A stretch of DNA of 64,000 nucleotides from Erwinia mallotivora (GTDB lineage Bacteria > Pseudomonadota > Gammaproteobacteria > Enterobacterales > Enterobacteriaceae): positions 1-64,000 of the forward strand of contig NZ_JFHN01000043.1 of the NCBI RefSeq assembly GCF_000590885.1, written 5' to 3'. The notes under the pieces were generated by a model. The model made no database searches. It saw only the letters and a program-made list of their open reading frames with translations, and was not told the DNA's origin. The translations under genes were made by a program, and so were the position numbers. Shown in pieces: positions 44,047 to 53,496 of this stretch; position 1 is the stretch's first letter, and every line of letters starts with the position of its first letter.

Positions 44047-46953
44047 ATGCCTTTTACCCTTGGTCAACGCTGGATCAGCGATACGGAAAGCGAACTGGGA
44101 CTGGGAACCGTGGTCGCCATCGACACACGCATGGTCACCCTGCTTTTTCCTGCTACCGGTGAAAACCGACTCTATGCAAAAAATGACTCTCCTATCACCC
44201 GCGTGATGTTCAATCCGGGGGATACCATCACCAGTCATGAAGGCTGGCAGATGGAGGTCAGCGATGTTAACAGCGACAACGGGCTGATGACCTACACCGG
44301 CACCCGACTGGATACCGGCGAAACTGACGTGGTGCTGCGTGAGGTGATGCTCGACAGCAAGCTGGTATTCAGTAAGCCGCAGGACCGTCTGTTCGCCGGC
44401 CAGCTGGATCGCATGGATCGCTTCGCCCTGCGCTTCCGCGCCCGCAAATACCAGAGCGAACAGTATCATCTGGCAACCAGCGGCCTGCGTGGGATGCGCA
44501 CCAGTCTGATCCCGCACCAGCTACACATCGCCCACGACGTCGGTCGCCGTCATGCGCCGCGCGTCCTGCTGGCGGATGAAGTTGGCCTGGGGAAAACCAT
44601 TGAAGCCGGGATGATCATTCATCAGCAGTTGCTGGCGGGACGTGCAGAGCGGGTGCTGATAATTGTGCCGGAAACCCTGCAACACCAGTGGCTGGTGGAG
44701 ATGCTGCGCCGCTTTAATCTGCATTTCGCGCTGTTTGATGATGACCGCTATGCCCAGGCCCAGCTGGACAGTGACAACGCCTTCGAAACAGAACAGCTGG
44801 TTATCTGCTCGCTCGACTTTGTGCGCCGTAACAAGCAGCGGCTGGAAAAACTGGCTGATGCCGCCTGGGACCTGATGATCGTTGACGAAGCGCATCACCT
44901 TGCATGGCAGGAAGGTCAGCCGGGTCGTGAATATCAGGTAATTGAACAGCTGGCAGAGCAGATCCCCGGCGTACTGCTGTTAACCGCCACGCCTGAACAG
45001 CTGGGTATGGAGAGCCATTTTGCCCGTCTGCGCCTGCTCGATCCCAGTCGTTTCCATGATTTTGCTGCCTTTGTTGAAGAACAACAGCATTTCCGTCCGA
45101 TTGCCGATGCGGTTGCCACGCTGCTGGCTGACCAGGCCATCACGCAGCAGGAGATGAACATGCTTAACGACCTGGTCGGAGAGCAGGACATCGAACCGCT
45201 GTTGCAAACGGCGAATGGCGAGGGCGACAACAAGCTGGCGGCGCGTCAGGAACTGATCGCAATGCTGATGGATCGCCACGGCACCAGCCGCGTGCTGTTC
45301 CGCAATACCCGTAACGGCGTGAAAGGTTTTCCACGGCGTGAACTGCATCAGATCCGTCTGCCGCTGCCGACGCAGTACCAGACCGCAATCAAAGTCTCCG
45401 GCATTATGGCCGCGCGTAAGAGCGCCGATGAACGTGCGCGGGACATGCTCTATCCGGAGCAGATTTATCAGGAGTTTGAAGGCGACAGCGGCACCTGGTG
45501 GAACTTCGATCCGCGCGTCGAATGGCTGATGGGCTTTCTCACCAGCCACCGGGCCGACAAGATCCTGGTGATCTGCGCCAAAGCCGCGACCGCGCTGCAA
45601 CTCGAACAGGTGCTGCGTGAACGTGAAGGTATCCACGCCGCCGTGTTCCATGAGGGTCTGTCAATTATCGAACGCGACCGTGCCGCCGCCTGGTTTGCTT
45701 CAGAGGAAAACGGCGCACAGGTGCTGCTCTGTTCAGAGATCGGTTCCGAAGGCCGCAACTTCCAGTTTGCCAGCCAGATGGTGATGTTCGATCTGCCCGC
45801 CAATCCGGATCTGCTGGAACAACGTATTGGCCGTCTGGATCGCATCGGCCAGGCGCACGATATTCAAATCCATGTGCCGTATCTGGAAAAAACCGCCCAG
45901 GCCGTACTACTGCGCTGGTATCACGAAGGCCTGGATGCCTTTGAACACACCTGCCCTACCGGCCGCACAGTGTATGACAAAGTCAGTGCGCAACTGACCG
46001 GCTATCTGGCCGCACCGGAGAGTACGGATGGACTGGATCACTTTATCAGCGAGTGTCGTCAACAGCATGACGACCTGAAAAATCAGCTGGAACAGGGGCG
46101 GGACCGTCTGCTGGAACTGAACTCCAACGGTGGCGAAAAAGCGCAGGCGCTGGCAGAGCAGATAGCGGAACAGGACAACCATATTGAGCTGGTTAACTTT
46201 GCGCTGAACCTGTTCGATATCGTCGGCATTAATCAGGAAGATCGCAGTGATAACCTGATTGTCCTGACGCCTGGCGATCATATGCTGGTGCCGGACTTTC
46301 CCGGCCTGCCGGAAGATGGCTGCACCATCACCTTTGATCGCGGCCAGGCGCTCTCGCGGGAAGATGCGCAGTATATTACCTGGGAGCATCCGATCATCCG
46401 TAACGGGCTGGATCTGATCCTCTCCGGCGATACCGGCAGCTGTGCGCTCTCCCTGCTGAAGAACAAAGCGCTGCCGGTCGGCACCCTGCTGCTGGAGCTG
46501 ATCTGGGTGGTGGAGGCGCAGGCCCCCAGACATCTGCAACTGACCCGCTTCCTGCCGCCGACGCCGGTACGGATGCTGGTTGACAGAAAAGGCACCAATC
46601 TGGCCGAAAAAGTGGAATTCGAAAGCTTCAACCGCCAGCTGAATGCCGTTAATCGCCACACCGGCAGCAAACTGGTGAACGCGGTTCAGCAGGATGTGCA
46701 CGCGATCCTGCAACTGTCAGAAGAACAGGCCGCCGCCGAAGCCCGTAAGGTGATCGACCGCGCCCGTCAGCAGGCTGACGAGAAACTGAGTGCAGAACTG
46801 TCACGTCTGGACGCATTACGCGCCGTCAATCCCAACATCCGTCAGGATGAAATCGACGCGCTGGAAAACAATCGTGAGCAGGTCCTGCTGGCGCTGAACG
46901 AGGCAGGCTGGCGACTGGATGCCCTGCGCCTGATTGTCGTCACCCATCAGTAA
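44047..46953 (+). CDS. rapA: RNA polymerase-associated ATPase RapA
   Basis: SWI2/SNF2 ATPase that binds core RNA polymerase and helps recycle it. The start at 44047 ([12 protein letters not shown]) gives 968 residues, the E. coli length; the ATG at 44002 is rejected. Two N-terminal Tudor-like domains are followed by the helicase core with [15 protein letters not shown] (about 173-187), DEAHH (about 280), TATPEQ and the C-lobe [16 protein letters not shown] and [25 protein letters not shown] hairpin lies between it and rluA. Confidence 0.98.
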
Positions 46954-46960
46954 TATCCAC

Positions 46961-46979
46961 GGGGCGGTGAATCCGCCCC
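46961..46979 (+). other. Perfect hairpin between rapA and rluA
   Basis: A 7-bp GC stem (GGGGCGG-TGAAT-CCGCCCC) begins 7 bp after the rapA stop. There is no T-run, so a rho-independent terminator is unlikely. It may limit or process a shared transcript. Confidence 0.4.
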
Positions 46980-46992
46980 TACAGGCAGAAAG

Positions 46993-47646
46993 ATGGAACC
47001 CTATAACCCACCGCAGGAACCCTGGCTACATATTCTGTATCAGGACCAGCATATTATCGTGGTCAATAAGCCCAGTGGACTACTCTCGGTTCCTGGCAGG
47101 CTGGCAGAACACAGCGACAGCGTGATGAGCCGCATCCAGCGCGATTTTCCCGCCGCGGAATCCGTTCACCGGCTGGATATGGCCACCAGCGGGGTGATCG
47201 TGGTGGCGCTGACCAAAAGCGCAGAGCGTGAACTTAAACGGCAGTTTCGCGAACGGGAACCGCAGAAGACCTACGTGGCAAGAGTTTGGGGACATCCGGC
47301 ACAGGAAAAGGGGCTTATCGATCTGCCGCTGATTTGCGACTGGCCGAACCGGCCAAAACAGAAGGTCTGTTTTGAAACCGGTAAAGCCGCGCAAACCGAG
47401 TATCAGGTGCTGGAGTACGCCGCCGATAACAGCGCACGGCTACAGCTGAAGCCCCTTACCGGCCGCTCTCATCAGCTCAGGGTTCATCTGCTGGCGCTGG
47501 GGCATCCTATTCTTGGCGATAACTTCTATGCCCATGAACAGGCCAGAATGATGGCTTCCCGCCTGCAACTCCATGCCGAGGTGCTGACCATCACCCATCC
47601 CAGCTTTCAGTCCGCAATGACCTTTCGTCAGCCCGCAGACTTTTAA
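46993..47646 (+). CDS. rluA: Dual-specificity pseudouridine synthase RluA
   Basis: Makes pseudouridine 746 in 23S rRNA and position 32 of several tRNAs. The 217 residues include the catalytic aspartate in SVHRLDMATSGVIV (about 60) and the TGRSHQLRVHLLALGHPILGD segment. It matches E. coli RluA along its full length. Just beyond its stop begins the convergent glycyl radical enzyme cluster; E. coli K-12 has yabP/yabQ in this interval. Confidence 0.97.
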   Translation: MEPYNPPQEPWLHILYQDQHIIVVNKPSGLLSVPGRLAEHSDSVMSRIQRDFPAAESVHRLDMATSGVIVVALTKSAERELKRQFREREPQKTYVARVWGHPAQEKGLIDLPLICDWPNRPKQKVCFETGKAAQTEYQVLEYAADNSARLQLKPLTGRSHQLRVHLLALGHPILGDNFYAHEQARMMASRLQLHAEVLTITHPSFQSAMTFRQPADF

Positions 47647-47679
47647 GCGCGGGCGACAGCCATCATCGGCCATCGGGGC

Positions 47680-48636
47680 TTATCCAATACAGTGCGACAG
47701 CGTGGTGGTCGGCAGACCGTGCTGCCGGGCAATCGCGGCCATCAGCGCCACCTGTGGCTTACCGTGATCCGGATGCAGTTGCTCATAGCGGCACTCCCTG
47801 CCGGACAGCTCATATTTGCGATTGCCAAAGTTATGGTAAGGCAGCAGATCAATCATGCGGAAACTGCTGTGTCCCTGCACTATCCCGGCAATCATCGCCA
47901 TCATCTTCTGTGCCTCTTCTTCACTGTCGTTCACCTCGGGGATGACCGGAATACGGATATGCAGCGGAATATCCTGCGAAAGCAGCTTCTTCAGATTACT
48001 CAGAATGCGGTGATTACTGACGCCGGTGTAGCGTTGATGCCGTGTTTCATCCGCCAGCTTGATATCAAACAGCACCAGCTGGCTCAGCTCACAGGCCTGC
48101 CATAACGCAGGCCAGGAGGCAAAACCGGAGGTTTCCACCGCAGTATGGATGCCTTCCTGCCTGGCGCGTAGCAACAGCGCGCGAGAAAACTCCGGCTGCA
48201 ACGCCATCTCACCGCCGCTGAGGGTCATCCCGCCGCCAGAGGTGCGGTAGTAAAGCTCGTCAGCCAGCACCGTGCGCATCACGTCATCAACGCTGAGCTG
48301 ACGCCCCACATGGCGGATCGCCGCCGCCGGGCAGGCATCTTCCGCCGGCCAGGCGACCCGTCCGACGTGCCCGGCCTTATCGGCAGGTCCCCGGCCGGGA
48401 CACGCCTGCCAGCAGGACGCTTTTGCACAGCGGGCACGGTCAAAAAACAGTTCCGGGGCCGATGCCAGACTTTCCGGATTGGCACACCAGGCGCACTTCA
48501 TCTGGCATCCTTTCAGAAACACCACGGTGCGCACGCCGGGACCGTCATGCAGCGAGAAACGTTGCAGGTTAAACACCGTGCCCGTCGGGGTGGTAGACTC
48601 AGAACCGCTCAAGCTGGGTGCGGCTGATAATTTCAT
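47680..48636 (-). CDS. Glycyl radical enzyme activase (radical SAM, CutD-like)
   Basis: Makes the glycyl radical on the partner enzyme encoded just upstream. The radical-SAM cluster motif is Cys44-x3-Cys48-x2-Cys51 (GCQMKCAWC). GPGVRTVVFLKGC precedes it and TLSGGEMALQPEF follows. The ATG at 48636 is chosen because GAGG lies 6 bp before it; this gives 318 residues and a 38-bp overlap with the upstream gene. The inserted ferredoxin-like region has only four cysteines (70, 75, 79, 102), while CutD-type activases usually have eight for two extra clusters. The exact start is uncertain; 48663 and a GTG at 48576 also fit. Confidence 0.88.
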   Translation of the reverse strand: MKLSAAPSLSGSESTTPTGTVFNLQRFSLHDGPGVRTVVFLKGCQMKCAWCANPESLASAPELFFDRARCAKASCWQACPGRGPADKAGHVGRVAWPAEDACPAAAIRHVGRQLSVDDVMRTVLADELYYRTSGGGMTLSGGEMALQPEFSRALLLRARQEGIHTAVETSGFASWPALWQACELSQLVLFDIKLADETRHQRYTGVSNHRILSNLKKLLSQDIPLHIRIPVIPEVNDSEEEAQKMMAMIAGIVQGHSSFRMIDLLPYHNFGNRKYELSGRECRYEQLHPDHGKPQVALMAAIARQHGLPTTTLSHCIG

Positions 48637-50980
48637 CCTGAACCTCACGACTGAGTTCGACAAAAAAGGCGCTGTACCCGGCCACCCTGATCATCAGATT
48701 ACGGTACTGCTGCGGATCCTGCTGAGCCTTACGCAGCGTTTCATCATCAACGTAGCTGAACTGCATCTGTGCGTTGCCCAACATGCTGGCACTGCGCAGC
48801 AGGGTGATCAGCCCCTGTTCGCCTTCCGGCGTGTCGAGAATGCCATGCAATAACTTGAAGTTATGCACCATGCCAATTTCCATCTCTTCAACGTTGATGC
48901 GACCAACAGAGTTGATAATGGCGGTGGGTCCGGCAAAGTCAGTCTGTTGCGATGGGCTGATGCCGTCCGCCAGCGGCATTCCGGCAAGACGCCCACTGGG
49001 TAGCGCACCGGTCACCAATCCGAACGGGGTATTGTTGGAAATCGACAGGGTGCCGTGGGTAAAGGGACCATACAGCATCTGGTACTGACGATGCTCATTT
49101 TCGGTGAAACGGATCAGATCGCGTGCGATGACGTCAACTTCCTCAACATCGTTGCCAAATTTCACCACGTTCAGACAGGCCAGGTGCAGTTGCTGATGAC
49201 CGTCAAAATTATCCCGCAATGCCTGAGCCATCTGCTCCAGCGTAACCTGCTGCCGTCGCCAGACCAGCTCATGCATCACCATCATTGAGTTGGCATAATC
49301 CGCCATACCGGTCCAGATCAGTCCCGGACCGTTGTTAATCATCGCGCCGCCCTGCATCACCTCTTTACCCTGCGCCATACACCCTTCCAGCAGGCAGGAG
49401 ATAAAAGGTTTTGGTGCCAGGCTTTTATGTAGTTTCTGCACCAGCAGCGTGGCTCTGGCCGCCTGCTGAACGATATGGCTGAGCTGCTGCTTGACCGCAG
49501 ACTCGAAGGCTTCATAGCTGGTCAGCTGGTGCAGTTCACCGGTTTGCGGGCCAGCCTGCGAACCGGTGACGGTTTTGCCATTGTTCAGCGCCAGTTCGAT
49601 GGCACAGGTGAAGGTGGTGTAGCCCACGGAGGTCCATTGATAGATACGGCCTGCACGCTGAGGCTCGACACAGCCCATCAGGCAGTAGTCGCGGGCATCG
49701 TCATAATCAAACCCTTTACGCAGCATCATTTTGATATGGGCATCATCAAAATGGCAGGCGGGGAAACCAATCCCGGCGCGAACCACCTCGACAATTTTGC
49801 GCATAAACGGCTGTGGCGACTGGTTGTGAATACGCACGGCAAGGCTCGGCTGATAAATTTTCAGCTTACGCGAGCAGTCCATAATCAGCAGGGAGAGTGG
49901 ATTGGTTGCGTCTCCGCCTTCACGTTTTTGTCCCCCCACCACCAGGTTAACGAAAGGCTGATAACCGGCGAAGTACATTGCGGAGGCGGCGCTGCAAATC
50001 CACATGCATTCCGACATCTTGATCATCCAGCAGCACAGCAGCTCTTCCGCCTGTTCCAGCGTCAGTACGCCTGAAGCCAGATCGGCCTCCAGCAGCGGCC
50101 AGAGATATTGATCAACGCGCCCCAGCGAAATGCCGGTCTGATTCTCTTCCAGAATAAACAGCGACTGCGCAAACCAGATAGCCTGTAAAGCCTCGTGAAA
50201 GCTTTGCGGTGGCTGCTCGGGAACGCGGCGGCAAATGACCGCCAGATTTTCCAGCTCGGCCTTACGCTGTGCAGAGGTTTCCTGCTGCGCCAGCTGGTCG
50301 GCATAGTCGGCATAGCGATGGGCATAATCCGTCACGCCCTGACAGGTTTCGATAATGGCCTGATAAAAGTACTGTTTTTCCTGATCTTCCGCACAGGTTG
50401 CAGAGAGCTGGCACAGCGCCTCTTCTGCCTCTTTACGCACGCCTCCCAGCCCTTTTTGCAACAAAATGATGTCGTAACCGGGACAGGTATCGCCGCCGCC
50501 ATTCTGGGTTTTAATGCTCAGATCACAGATGCCATCGTGGGTGCTCCATTCCCACAGCCCGGCATGGCGCAGCTGTGTTTCCGCCATTTCATCCAGAGAA
50601 CGCCCCTGCCAGAAGGGAAAGATCTCTTCACGCAGTTCGCGCTTGACCTCTTCGCTGATCTGATAAGGGTCCTGAGTACGCGTTGACATGGTTTCCAGCT
50701 CATCAGCCACCCAGCGCCAGGCAATTTCAGGCGAGATTTCTCCGCCACGCGCCGCCCCGGCTGGATGGCTGATGATCAGCTCCTGCTCACCAATGACCAG
50801 CGGGGCAATCTGACAGGCACGGCGAAACGCCATCGCGCGCAATAACAAAACCGGCATTCCAGGGTAACGACGATAAATTTCGGTTACCGCTCTGGCACGG
50901 GAGGCTGAAATAAAAGGCTTAGCCTGTAAATAACGCTCACGCAGGGCGGAAATTCTTGGAAGAAGCGTCTCATTTGTCAT
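48599..50980 (-). CDS. CutC-like glycyl radical enzyme (putative quaternary-amine lyase)
   Basis: 793-residue glycyl radical enzyme. The closest known family is choline trimethylamine-lyase CutC, which cleaves choline to trimethylamine and acetaldehyde. The PFL-like domain spans about 8-650, with the active-site cysteine and glutamate in GCVEP (Cys437, Glu439) and the glycyl loop RVAGYSAFF with Gly768. At a constant offset of 52 from the D. alaskensis CutC numbering (recalled, not computed) Asp164, Phe343, Cys437, Glu439, Thr450 and Tyr454 are kept. The choline-contacting Tyr208 is Ile156. The N-terminus is about 50 residues shorter. No microcompartment targeting or shell genes are near. It overlaps the upstream SMR gene by 4 bp. 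The substrate is therefore inferred as choline or a related amine, not proven. Confidence 0.85.
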   Translation of the reverse strand: MTNETLLPRISALRERYLQAKPFISASRARAVTEIYRRYPGMPVLLLRAMAFRRACQIAPLVIGEQELIISHPAGAARGGEISPEIAWRWVADELETMSTRTQDPYQISEEVKRELREEIFPFWQGRSLDEMAETQLRHAGLWEWSTHDGICDLSIKTQNGGGDTCPGYDIILLQKGLGGVRKEAEEALCQLSATCAEDQEKQYFYQAIIETCQGVTDYAHRYADYADQLAQQETSAQRKAELENLAVICRRVPEQPPQSFHEALQAIWFAQSLFILEENQTGISLGRVDQYLWPLLEADLASGVLTLEQAEELLCCWMIKMSECMWICSAASAMYFAGYQPFVNLVVGGQKREGGDATNPLSLLIMDCSRKLKIYQPSLAVRIHNQSPQPFMRKIVEVVRAGIGFPACHFDDAHIKMMLRKGFDYDDARDYCLMGCVEPQRAGRIYQWTSVGYTTFTCAIELALNNGKTVTGSQAGPQTGELHQLTSYEAFESAVKQQLSHIVQQAARATLLVQKLHKSLAPKPFISCLLEGCMAQGKEVMQGGAMINNGPGLIWTGMADYANSMMVMHELVWRRQQVTLEQMAQALRDNFDGHQQLHLACLNVVKFGNDVEEVDVIARDLIRFTENEHRQYQMLYGPFTHGTLSISNNTPFGLVTGALPSGRLAGMPLADGISPSQQTDFAGPTAIINSVGRINVEEMEIGMVHNFKLLHGILDTPEGEQGLITLLRSASMLGNAQMQFSYVDDETLRKAQQDPQQYRNLMIRVAGYSAFFVELSREVQDEIISRTQLERF

Positions 50981-51306
50981 TTAAATACTCCCATCGTAAT
51001 ACAACCAGTGACAATTAAAAGGATGCCTGTGAGGGTGTACTTCCCTGTTTTCTGCCGAAAAAAAATCATCCCTGCGATATTAACCATCGCAATGCCCAGA
51101 CCGGACCATAAGGCGTAAGTCAGCCCCACCGAAAGAGCAGTCATCGCTCTGGAAAGTGAAAAGAAACAGAGAAAATAAATCGTCAGGACGGCAAGGGTTA
51201 TTCCTGCCCGACGAAAATCATTGGTTTTAGGTAAAAGGCTGGTAGCAATAACTTCGGTAATTATTGCCACCGATAACCAGGCAAAACCAGATAAGGCAAC
51301 AGGCAT
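50977..51306 (-). CDS. SMR family transporter, second of pair
   Basis: 109-residue four-helix small multidrug resistance protein of the inner membrane. The essential proton- and cation-binding glutamate of helix 1 is Glu18 (AIITEVIATSLL), and helix 3 has TYALWSGLGIAMV with Trp67. It ends TGILLIVTGCITMGVFK. Its start shares one base with the stop of the first SMR gene and its end overlaps the glycyl radical enzyme by 4 bp, so all are translated together. Paired SMR proteins often work as heterodimers. Here they probably move the substrate or the amine product; direction is unknown. Confidence 0.88.
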   Translation of the reverse strand: MPVALSGFAWLSVAIITEVIATSLLPKTNDFRRAGITLAVLTIYFLCFFSLSRAMTALSVGLTYALWSGLGIAMVNIAGMIFFRQKTGKYTLTGILLIVTGCITMGVFK

Positions 51307-51671
51307 TAACTGTTCTCCTCTGCCGTATTTTCATTTAACTCATCTCTGGCCAGTAAATTAATGACCAGTACACCCGTAATAATCAGTAAAATCCCGCACA
51401 GCCCCCCGGGATGAACGCCTTTACCAGACAGGAAAAAATTAATCAGCGATGTCGCTACAATGCCGATGCCCGCCCAGAGCGCATAAGCCAGGCCAATGGG
51501 GATTTTTTTTAACGAAAGCGTCAGCAAATAATATGAACAAAAATAAGCGGCCAGCGCACCTGACGCAGGGAGCCATTTTGTCATACCACTGGATAAGCCC
51601 AGCAATGTGGTAGCAATGATTTCGGTTATGATGGCCAGTATCAGGAACCTGCTGTATTTATCATTAGTCAT
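51306..51671 (-). CDS. SMR family transporter, first of pair
   Basis: 121-residue SMR protein and first gene of the four-gene operon. The helix-1 glutamate is Glu17 (AIITEIIATTLLGLS), and helix 3 has AYALWAGIGIVATSLINFF with Trp66, as in EmrE. An acidic C-terminal tail (RDELNENTAEENS) follows helix 4 and is not present in EmrE or in the second protein; such asymmetry fits a heterodimer with fixed orientation. The ribosome site GGTG is modest. Confidence 0.88.
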   Translation of the reverse strand: MTNDKYSRFLILAIITEIIATTLLGLSSGMTKWLPASGALAAYFCSYYLLTLSLKKIPIGLAYALWAGIGIVATSLINFFLSGKGVHPGGLCGILLIITGVLVINLLARDELNENTAEENS

Positions 51672-52084
51672 ATAAGTTCACCGATTTCAGAACAGCTTAT
51701 TAACAATGCATTAAAATCATGCGGCAGTTATCTTGCGGCAGACTATACAGACCAGCTTCTCAATCACACCTAAACCACTCAGGCATTTACCTGATAATTA
51801 AAATCAGCCTTATTTAAAAGAGGTATTGATCATGCTGACCATCTTAATAAACATCGCCATGTCGGAAGAAAAAAAGACGCCACCTTAGCCAGAGAGTTTA
51901 TTATTTCCTGGTACAGCCTGATATTAAAAAACCGTTTTTCAAATGGATAAGATGACAGGTAAGACGCTTTAATCTGATAAAAATTATTAATTTTTGCGTC
52001 ACGAGAAAGAACTATTTATAGTTATCCGACTTGAGATAACGGTGGCAGGAAAGCCACGTTAACGAAAACAGGGATGGAGAAAAT
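51672..52084. other. AT-rich upstream region of the SMR-lyase operon
   Basis: About 410 bp, clearly AT-richer than the core genes around it. TGCGGCAG occurs twice in the same direction, 14 bp apart (51720-51727 and 51734-51741), about 50 bp before the operon start; this could be an operator. No convincing FNR box, regulator gene or known riboswitch was found. A short frame at 51832-51888 (18 codons, plus strand) has an AGAGG ahead of it but is not claimed as a gene. Confidence 0.5.
52021..52063 (+). other. Two adjacent hairpins ahead of a small ORF
   Basis: GTTATC-8 nt-GATAAC (52021-52040) is directly followed by an AACGGTGGC / GCCACGTT stem with one bulge and an AGGAAA loop (about 52039-52061). 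They lie in the leader of the small ORF at 52085. No match to a known riboswitch class was recognised. Confidence 0.4.
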
Positions 52085-52273
52085 ATGGCTCGTCACATCG
52101 CCCCCGGATACTGCGTGGTGAAACGCCCCGGCACGCTGGATTATCATATTAATAAGATTATGTCTTTTTATTACACATTTTTGACGGGTACAGGCTTTAC
52201 AGTTTTTATTTGTTTTATGGGCCTGATAATAAATTTGACGCACCCAAATACGGCTACCCCCGCCGCACAGTGA
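52085..52273 (+). CDS. Possible small membrane protein, unrecognised
   Basis: 62-codon frame with GGAG 5 bp ahead of the ATG and a hydrophobic stretch at about residues 28-50 (TFLTGTGFTVFICFMGLIIN), compatible with one membrane segment. An internal ATG (codon 26) would give a 37-residue protein made almost wholly of that segment. No homologue is recognised. It is divergent from the SMR-lyase operon and convergent with djlA. Coding status is uncertain. Confidence 0.4.
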   Translation: MARHIAPGYCVVKRPGTLDYHINKIMSFYYTFLTGTGFTVFICFMGLIINLTHPNTATPAAQ

Positions 52274-52318
52274 ATATCACGAGTATTCCAGAATGGGACC
52301 ACGTCCTGGTTATTAAGC

Positions 52319-52348
52319 CTGATAAAGGGAGACGCGCTCCCTTATCAG
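52319..52348. terminator. Intergenic hairpin between small ORF and djlA
   Basis: A strong stem (CTGATAAAGGGAG / CTCCCTTATCAG with one bulge, loop ACGCG) lies in the convergent gap, 10 bp after the djlA stop. Neither side has a clear T-run, so termination would be weak or rho-assisted. Confidence 0.5.
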
Positions 52349-52358
52349 CATCAGCGTC

Positions 52359-53186
52359 CTACTTAAAACCTTTCTCACGTTTGATCAGGTCATATGCAGC
52401 CTGGATATTTTGTGCCTTCTGCTTGGCCATTTCCATCATCTGCGGAGGCAGACCTTTGGCGACCAGTTTATCCGGATGGTGCTCGCTCATCAGCTTGCGG
52501 TAAGCCCGCTTGATGGTTGCCGCATCGTCACTGCTTTTCACGCCCAGCACGCTACAGGCATCTTCCAGCGTCGGTCCACGCTGACCAGCATTGAATCCCC
52601 CCTGAGAACCGGTATTCCTCCACGATTGACCTTCGCCACCAAATTGCTGACCGCTTTCCATCATTCGCAGAAACTGATCAAACTGCATACGGGAGATGCC
52701 CAGCTCTTCAGCAATGACATACAGCACCTGGCGCTCATTGGGGTGCAGTGAACCATCCGCAAACGCAGCCTGGATCTGAATCTCCAGAAACATCCTAATC
52801 AGATCGAAACGCCCGAAGCAGGCACTGCGCAGCTCCTGCAATTTACTGCGCAGCGGGTAGTCACCCTCTTTACCTTCACGAAAAGCGCGTTGTGCAGAGG
52901 ATCGCGCTTCACCATGCAATTGCATACGATCCATCAGCAAGGACGCCATCTGGATATCAGCATCGGTCACCCGGCCTTTCGATTTCGTCAGGTGCCCCAT
53001 AACCTCAAAGGTGGTGCGAAAAAACAGTGTCTGCCGGACCTGCTGATTAGCAAAATATCCCTGCCCTTTGACTGTCCTCACCTTGTCAAACAGGTGACCA
53101 ATCAGCAGGCCGAACGCTAATCCCCAAAAACCCGTACCGCTTAATAATCCCAGTACCAGCCCGATAACTTTTCCCCAATAGCGCAT
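52359..53186 (-). CDS. djlA: DnaJ-like membrane co-chaperone DjlA
   Basis: Membrane-anchored co-chaperone that stimulates DnaK and affects the Rcs envelope stress system. The 275 residues start with a glycine-rich membrane segment (about 6-30). A TerB-like central domain ([19 protein letters not shown]) and a C-terminal J domain with the HPD tripeptide in [13 protein letters not shown] (about 240) follow. It is divergent from lptD. Confidence 0.97.
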
Positions 53187-53496
53187 ATACTCCTCAATTC
53201 GCCATGCTGAAGGCTAAAAATTGCATTATCATACCCGTCATTTATCCCAGAGCCTAACGGCAACGCGGCCAGACCATCAGGCGTTACCTGACATATTTCA
53301 GATTTACAGGCAACCGGCAACTGCCCGAACTCACCTGAAGCTTACTAAAGTAAGTGACTGAGCGGAGTAAGGGAAGCCGACATGTCTGCAATTTGCAAGA
53401 TGCAAGGTATAGCACTGGCGCAACGCTGTTGAGTACGTTAGTCTCTGACCGTTTGTCGGCATGATGCTTGCTATCACGGAATTTTCGATACCGCGT
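53187..53496. other. djlA-lptD divergent intergenic region
   Basis: About 310 bp carrying the start regions of both genes. It includes a perfect palindrome CTTACT-AA-AGTAAG (53341-53354). lptD has a sigma-E promoter in E. coli; a GAACTC at 53327-53332 resembles the -35, but no -10 stands at the right distance, so it is not called. Confidence 0.45.

Follow-up and report, generated by a model that had tools for sequence, protein, structure and literature searches.

Within the first 64,000 nt of Erwinia mallotivora contig NZ_JFHN01000043.1 (assembly GCF_000590885.1), a stretch that we call the window and within which all coordinates lie, a four-gene operon encodes two small multidrug resistance (SMR) proteins, a CutC-like glycyl radical enzyme (GRE), and a radical S-adenosylmethionine (radical-SAM) activase (Table 1). 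We propose, at a probability of roughly 0.52, that this operon is a cytosolic module built on a C-N lyase derived from CutC, and that its substrate is choline-like but perhaps not choline. The earlier note on this DNA had described four tightly overlapping genes and assigned these identities to them; the overlaps on the minus strand are exact (1 bp for SMR1/SMR2, 4 bp for SMR2/GRE, and 38 bp for GRE/activase), and Pfam and NCBIfam agree on two SMR proteins (PF00893), a GRE (PF02901 and PF01228), and a radical-SAM GRE activase. The 38-bp overlap rests on an ATG at 48636, at which column all seven aligned orthologous activases have Met; an alternative TTG start would lengthen the activase gene to 48663. 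The four-gene operon is real rather than a chance arrangement, because the gene set recurs across orthologue loci.

A scan of species genomes with short peptide patterns, which is pattern-based and not exhaustive, returned at least 79 loci, 8 of which encode a GRE 68 to 88% identical to that of the window (Pantoea sp. IMH; Pantoea sp. BAV 3049; a Pantoea metagenome-assembled genome, or MAG; Erwinia sp. 198; Brenneria sp.; Franconibacter helveticus; Enterobacter sp. 10-1; and an Enterobacterales MAG). A survey of the genus adds genome G229 (85%), bringing the Enterobacterales orthologues to 10 with the window included (68 to 100% identity). GRE and activase genes are adjacent in all eight named loci (one activase is truncated) and in G229, while two SMR genes precede the GRE gene in the same order in seven of the eight (SMR1 is frame-broken in one); an intact SMR pair accompanies the GRE gene in 8 of 10 orthologue loci. 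Five loci that do not adjoin rluA and djlA, the genes that flank the operon in the window, show the same SMR-SMR-GRE-activase order (the activase is truncated in one).

Judged by its sequence, the encoded enzyme is fairly clearly a CutC-type C-N lyase. It passes the NCBIfam choline_CutC equivalog model (TIGR04394; 1186 bits versus a cut-off of 1050), as do three further orthologues (1132 to 1181 bits), so that all four scanned lie above the cut-off; these are also the lowest scores among the eight CutC-like proteins scanned (1132 to 1186 versus 1319 to 1644 bits). Catalytic residues C437, E439, and G768 correspond to C489, E491, and G821 of Desulfovibrio alaskensis CutC, and all are kept. The predicted structure has a good overall fold (pTM 0.84, mean pLDDT 78.5), and a Foldseek search with it returned CutC structures as the closest solved folds, with a TM-score of 0.95 to 0.96 to 5FAU. 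Model geometry for the direction of Lys157 was dropped, as pLDDT is below 50 in active-site loops (337-342, 438-449, and 766-793 among others).

The amine pocket of this lyase differs from that of CutC. We compared pocket residues, numbered as in D. alaskensis CutC and drawn from PMC12451663, PMC12838924, and PMC8473560, across an alignment of 108 GREs comprising 9 orthologues, 90 other CutC-like proteins with >50% identity to the window GRE, and 9 other GREs. The nine aligned orthologues all retain Asp216, Thr334, Phe389, Phe395, Met487, Cys489, Glu491, Thr502, Tyr506, Leu698, Ile700, and Gly821; the features that mark membership of the family (the glycyl radical Gly, the catalytic Cys-x-Glu, Asp216, Thr502, and Phe395) are therefore among those kept. 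At positions 208-209, every orthologue (the 9 aligned and G229) has Ile-Lys in place of a pair that includes the Tyr208 of the CutC pocket. Tyr208-His209 is present in 87 of the 90 other CutC-like proteins; the other three come from Desulfovibrio sp. DV (Val-Lys), Desulfuromonas, and Desulfuromonadales (Ile-Lys in the last two). Close to Tyr506, all nine aligned orthologues carry Thr508, Phe509, and Thr510, a combination found in none of the 90 others, in which Trp509 and Pro510 are invariant. Tyr208 is named as a substrate-binding residue of CutC, and the Y208F/Y506F change loses ~83-fold in catalytic efficiency (PMC8473560, PMC12451663), although the direct electrostatic role of the two tyrosines is small by calculation in the same published work. 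The altered pocket suggests a shift of substrate. Because Tyr208-His209 has become Ile-Lys in every orthologue found, a choline relative seems slightly more likely than choline to be the preferred substrate.

A second unusual set of CutC-like proteins emerged from the same alignment. In 13 of the 90 other CutC-like proteins, Phe506 and Gln700 replace Tyr506 and Ile700 (loci L062, L084, L085, L088, L089, L090, L093, L094 [second copy], L096, L098, L102, L103, and L104). Several of these loci have no shell match, and an SMR gene lies near the GRE gene in L104.

A tree of 59 GREs, made by the quick search of IQ-TREE with SH-aLRT support only and with a long-branch warning among the non-CutC sequences, places the CutC-like proteins in one group separate from other GREs. 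The nine orthologues form a clade with a support of 100, joined first by Desulfovibrio sp. DV (100) and then by two Desulfuromonas-type proteins (100); the sister group (98) of this Lys209 clade comprises Pelobacter proteins together with the Phe506/Gln700 group. Canonical type II CutC, including a copy encoded in the window's own genome, falls in a different clade. By this phylogeny, the orthologue group is a separate branch nested inside the CutC family. The earlier note had asked whether the enzyme belongs with CutC or with a sister clade, and the outcome combines the two: a sister clade of its own, within the CutC family and apart from the canonical CutC of the genome. The nearest non-orthologue in the pattern scan is Desulfovibrio sp. 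DV at 65% identity, whose locus (L038) is cut by a contig end, and Lys209 is common to the orthologues, to this protein, and to the Desulfuromonas-type loci L039 and L100.

Shell-lessness alone is not unique to this operon, since Pelobacter and Desulfuromonas, too, have CutC relatives in loci where no shell protein was matched. Like the window operon, the Pelobacter (L041 and L042) and Desulfuromonas-type (L039 and L100) loci have no bacterial microcompartment (BMC) match in the 7.7 to 18.4 kb examined, and the Pelobacter frames are, as in most orthologues, open only a short way (24 amino acids) ahead of the core; unlike the window GRE, however, the Pelobacter lyases retain Tyr208-His209. In L039 and L041, neither a shell protein nor the cut aldehyde dehydrogenase was matched, and an activase is present in both. 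Instead of an SMR pair, these two loci have an alginate-export-like outer-membrane protein, a DeoR regulator, an APH-family kinase, and an EamA-type transporter; three of this set are found in L100 and one in L042. Pelobacter carbinolicus strains are said to grow by splitting choline to trimethylamine and acetaldehyde, for which PMC3543383 points to a duplicated ethanolamine lyase, and 13C-choline labeled Pelobacter in sediment (PMC6331629). Such strains may split choline with a shell-less lyase. As a separate observation, the Desulfuromonas-type CutC-like GRE lies beside the outer-membrane protein, DeoR regulator, and APH-family kinase in both L039 (7962-17261) and L100 (1649-11365); L039 also has the EamA transporter and a separate activase, and Pelobacter L041 carries the same set.

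Several observations agree with the proposal of the earlier note that the lyase works as a shell-less unit. The GRE of type 1 GRE-associated microcompartments (GRM1) has a short N-terminal predicted encapsulation peptide and that of GRM2 an extension of ~350 amino acids (PMC6325248), and most other CutC-like proteins in our alignment have ~65 or ~350 amino acids before the catalytic core. The window GRE has no such extension: the frame is open only 6 to 29 amino acids ahead of the core in 8 of 9 orthologues, and in the other (L035) the 76 amino acids open before the core overlap SMR2 and the start is ambiguous. No shell protein was matched by tblastn in the eight other orthologue loci (L028 to L035), and within these 18-kb loci the aldehyde dehydrogenase-like matches were at 32% (L029) and 27% (L030). 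The note's statement that neither shell nor aldehyde genes adjoin the lyase and that core genes lie on both sides holds as well, with RluA and DjlA matched and no BMC shell match found on the window's contig. Among the nine orthologue genomes searched, five gave no BMC shell match (matches are present in the window's genome, Brenneria, the Enterobacterales MAG, and Enterobacter 10-1), and seven gave no second CutC (present in the window's genome and Enterobacter 10-1). When three shell genes are removed from E. coli 536, choline is still metabolized, with 21 versus 12 mM acetaldehyde and slower growth in the presence of choline (PMC10710832), so a shell-less route is feasible. The expectation that aldehyde would be handled by genes elsewhere is consistent with AdhE, a possible sink, which scores above its cut-off in 9 of 9 orthologue genomes.

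A complete cut/BMC locus of the canonical kind lies elsewhere in the genome of the window. A search of the assembly (4.64 Mb in 75 contigs) for the pyruvate formate-lyase (PFL)-like family gave six matches in four genes. One of these, on contig C18, encodes a 1,129-amino-acid type II CutC (1644 bits) and lies with genes for CutD (403 bits) and an acetylating acetaldehyde dehydrogenase (711 bits), each of which exceeds its cut-off. The locus further has four BMC-domain matches, an SMR pair of its own, and genes for a EutN/CcmL protein, an iron-type alcohol dehydrogenase, and a member of the phosphate propanoyltransferase family. A further GRE gene on contig C20 (69616-71997; an 839-amino-acid frame) reaches the cut-off of the PFL2-3 subfamily alone (792 bits) and that of no equivalog. 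The earlier note had called the operon a reduced system, expecting this idea to fail if a full cut locus stood elsewhere in the genome and the enzyme fell in the canonical clade; the cut locus was found, and the canonical placement was not. The shell-less unit thus stands, but the word "reduced" does so only in part, as the genome has the full locus with its own SMR pair and the operon is not simply a cut locus minus its shell: the pocket is changed at two positions in 10 of 10 orthologues, and the ferredoxin insert of the activase is reduced or lost. The presence of a cut/BMC locus in the same genome would fit an accessory role for the GRE in that microcompartment, e.g., as a shell-loadable variant; this is the least probable of the explanations considered, given that the GRE has no N-terminal packaging extension and that five of nine orthologue genomes have no shell match.

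Comparison with characterized cut systems places these differences in context. The GRM2 cut locus of Klebsiella, E. coli 536, and Proteus encodes a GRE of the same family (about 58 to 60% identity) that shares the catalytic Cys, Glu, and Gly and most pocket residues, and both loci hold an activase and an SMR pair. The window GRE differs in its lack of the GRM2-type ~350-residue extension, in its clade, in having Ile-Lys rather than Tyr208-His209, and in having no adjoining genes for shells, aldehyde dehydrogenase, or alcohol dehydrogenase; its activase has a reduced ferredoxin insert. With the GRM1 CutC of D. alaskensis (5FAU), it shares catalytic residues and fold, but not the ~65-residue extension, the microcompartment genes, or the pocket pair.

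The activase keeps the radical-SAM CxxxCxxC motif and scores 249 bits on the CutD model cutC_activ_rSAM (TIGR04395), below the cut-off of 360; among the models, it passes only TIGR02494, which covers GRE activases in general as a subfamily. Canonical CutD and the activases of L038 and L039 have eight Cys in the ferredoxin insert. The window activase has four, the range across it, L034, L028, L031, and L032 is four to five, and the insert is lost in Brenneria (L029), the Enterobacterales MAG (L030), Enterobacter (L035), and Franconibacter (L033).

Both SMR proteins of the window most resemble the Qac/EmrE models and retain the glutamate of the first transmembrane helix, a residue kept in all 23 aligned SMR sequences. 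Eight SMR2 proteins share a clade (95/95) whose grouping with the second SMR protein of the cut locus is weak; eight SMR1 proteins fall together, apart from SMR2 and not with the first SMR protein of the cut locus. Three SMR proteins of other loci also fall on the SMR1 side, one of them among the SMR1 proteins on a long branch. The cut cluster, like the window operon, has two adjacent Qac-type SMR genes in its CutC locus, but these proteins are only 29 to 43% identical to their best matches in the seven SMR-bearing orthologue loci. From gene order, the cut-locus pair probably corresponds to CutU and CutV of a published gene list (PMC12977544); the same paper reports that trimethylamine formation depends to an important degree on putative transporters encoded in the cut cluster of E. 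coli 536. In Proteus mirabilis, two emrE homologs are among the genes changed with choline (PMC5026066).

An SMR pair beside a lyase could also act in defense against toxic quaternary ammonium compounds, by SMR export coupled with GRE breakdown. The resemblance to Qac/EmrE and the intact SMR pairs found with most orthologous GREs would suit such a role, which we nevertheless regard as improbable: neither protein reaches the cut-off of any named SMR model that it matched, and choline-degrading cut loci have the same kind of SMR pair (PMC5026066). That glycyl radical enzymes function only without oxygen also speaks against defense. In a literature with few subscription papers, we found no paper on a GRE together with small multidrug resistance, and among the papers listed none described a CutC that stands alone or is linked to SMR genes other than in cut clusters.

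The distribution of the operon is patchy, and its GRE is under strong purifying selection (ratio of nonsynonymous to synonymous substitution rates, dN/dS, of ~0.06). An orthologue is present in 5 of 37 genomes of the genus, in all 5 between djlA and rluA; three of these carriers are Pantoea IMH, Pantoea BAV 3049, and Erwinia 198, which overlap with the eight named orthologues. The other five named loci lack the window's flanking genes and thus hold the operon at different sites. In the close relative G221, the rluA/djlA site (L149, 2180-2724, on contig C12) retains only residues 204-327 of the activase and short pieces of the N-terminal part of the GRE, with no SMR match at this remnant. Against four relatives, the window GRE has a dN/dS of 0.056 to 0.076, with synonymous sites near saturation; djlA and surA lie somewhat lower (0.024 to 0.051), and the activase and SMR genes range from 0.05 to 0.26. 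The earlier note would have given up its proposal had the operon been missing from all close relatives with signs of decay: 32 of 37 genomes do lack an orthologue and one shows decay, and in others the operon is intact and under selection. These gaps, the G221 fragments, a truncated activase in Franconibacter, and the loss of the SMR pair in Erwinia sp. 198 would be expected of a decaying cut-locus relic with no present function. We consider this very improbable, as all four window genes are open, the GRE is constrained, and the unit persists at several sites in several genera.

Orthologue and canonical CutC show no significant association in the genus (both in 2 genomes, orthologue only in 3, canonical only in 4, and neither in 28; Fisher p = 0.18). 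G229 also has a canonical CutC; with the window's genome and Enterobacter 10-1, the two occur together in three genomes in all. Mobile carriage and wider occurrence were checked in larger collections: 33 plasmid records matched the operon, all at <60% identity; 322 of 5,426 E. coli genomes matched, none over >80% of the operon, and the 15 matches listed are cutC at 64 to 66%; and overlapping draws of 198, 394, and 369 genomes from the family, order, and class, in which the best candidates per genome were scored, gave no orthologue at >60% besides the window's. These draws miss known carriers, so absence is not established for whole groups.

The most serious competing explanation is that the operon encodes an ordinary second choline trimethylamine-lyase, in which Ile-Lys is tolerated and acetaldehyde passes to AdhE (here also to the cut locus); we consider this possible, though doubtful. 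It differs from our favored reading in substrate alone. All four scanned orthologues exceed the curated CutC cut-off; the branch is nested in a family whose type I and type II branches have reported choline-lyase activity (PMC6325248); Phe395, Asp216, Glu491, Thr502, and Tyr506 are kept; and the cut locus likewise has an SMR pair. Against these points stand the orthologues' position at the bottom of the CutC scores, the invariant Ile-Lys pair and the Thr508-Phe509-Thr510 combination confined to the orthologues, and the retention of an orthologue beside canonical CutC in three genomes.

A number of observations weigh against a noncholine substrate or, more broadly, against the module as we describe it. 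The NCBI equivalog model still labels the window GRE a choline trimethylamine-lyase. The Desulfuromonas relative with Ile-Lys (L039) and the Pelobacter relative with Tyr-His (L041) have the same neighbor genes, which weakens the tie between the Ile-Lys pair and a new substrate. The AdhE model also matches all 14 control genomes, above cut-off in 2, and the eight named genomes, two of them MAGs, are of unstated completeness, making the absences of shell and second CutC less sure. SMR1 is split over two frames in Pantoea IMH, only an SMR1 fragment remains of the SMR pair in Erwinia sp. 198, and the Franconibacter helveticus activase (L033, 10285-10845) is truncated beside an open GRE. Finally, no FNR or CRP box is conserved upstream, where the best matches vary in position and quality among loci; anaerobic control of the operon is therefore not demonstrated.

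Features of the operon and its flanks are collected in Table 1. All 37 genomes of the genus gave a match to rluA. Guanidine-type riboswitches can accompany SMR genes; in a search of window positions 46900-53300 for riboswitches and structured RNAs, the only match at E<0.1 was a sub-threshold gntR-DTE inside the activase gene. Directly before the operon, Brenneria (L029, 6644-7216) and the Enterobacterales MAG (L030, 6670-7236) have a YfaZ-family gene.

Table 1. Operon genes, altered pocket codons, and flanking genes in the window.
Feature	Position	Strand	Details
SMR1 (small multidrug resistance protein)	51306..51671	-	121 aa; PF00893 78.4 bits
SMR2 (second SMR protein)	50977..51306	-	109 aa; PF00893 70.2 bits
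CutC-like GRE	48599..50980	-	793 aa; choline_CutC 1186 bits
GRE codons Ile156-Lys157 (= D. alaskensis CutC Tyr208-His209), altered amine-pocket pair	50510..50515	-	
Radical-SAM activase (CutD-like)	47680..48636	-	ATG start; TIGR02494 300 bits, cut-off 174
Flank rluA	46993..47646	+	NF007543 448 bits, cut-off 286
Flank djlA	52359..53186	-	NF006948 430.6 bits, cut-off 162

For the favored CutC-derived module, family knowledge and the residues kept suggest the following route. The activase would use S-adenosylmethionine to place a radical on Gly768 of the GRE, and Cys437 would then abstract a hydrogen from the hydroxyl-bearing carbon of a choline-like ammonium alcohol, with Glu439, Thr450, and Asp164 handling the proton. 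Departure of the amine would yield trimethylamine or another amine and an aldehyde, which, from a GRE not packed in a shell, would go to the AdhE present in these genomes; the reaction could serve as an electron sink and carbon source in anaerobic growth. The SMR pair may carry the cationic substrate or product by proton antiport. A more specific version, in which members of the Ile208-Lys209 clade constitute a distinct C-N lyase that acts without a shell on another hydroxy-ammonium compound and has the SMR pair for a dedicated carrier, is plausible but tentative, and we hold it somewhat short of even odds. Candidate substrates might bear a carboxylate or a bulkier head group; the conversion of carnitine to trimethylamine and acetoacetate would be chemically possible.

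These findings bear on how CutC sequences are read, as the potential to form trimethylamine from choline is scored with cutC as the marker gene (PMC5433236). Should its substrate be something else, this clade, with its altered pocket and no shell, would still pass the CutC model and be wrongly counted among choline degraders. If choline is used after all, facultative anaerobes would be splitting it in the open cytoplasm with AdhE as the sink, which bears on the purpose of the microcompartment. If instead the substrate is another hydroxy-ammonium compound, the operon would represent an unrecognized anaerobic route of quaternary-amine breakdown in Enterobacterales. At four genes and 4 kb, it is small enough to be transferred whole to a laboratory strain.

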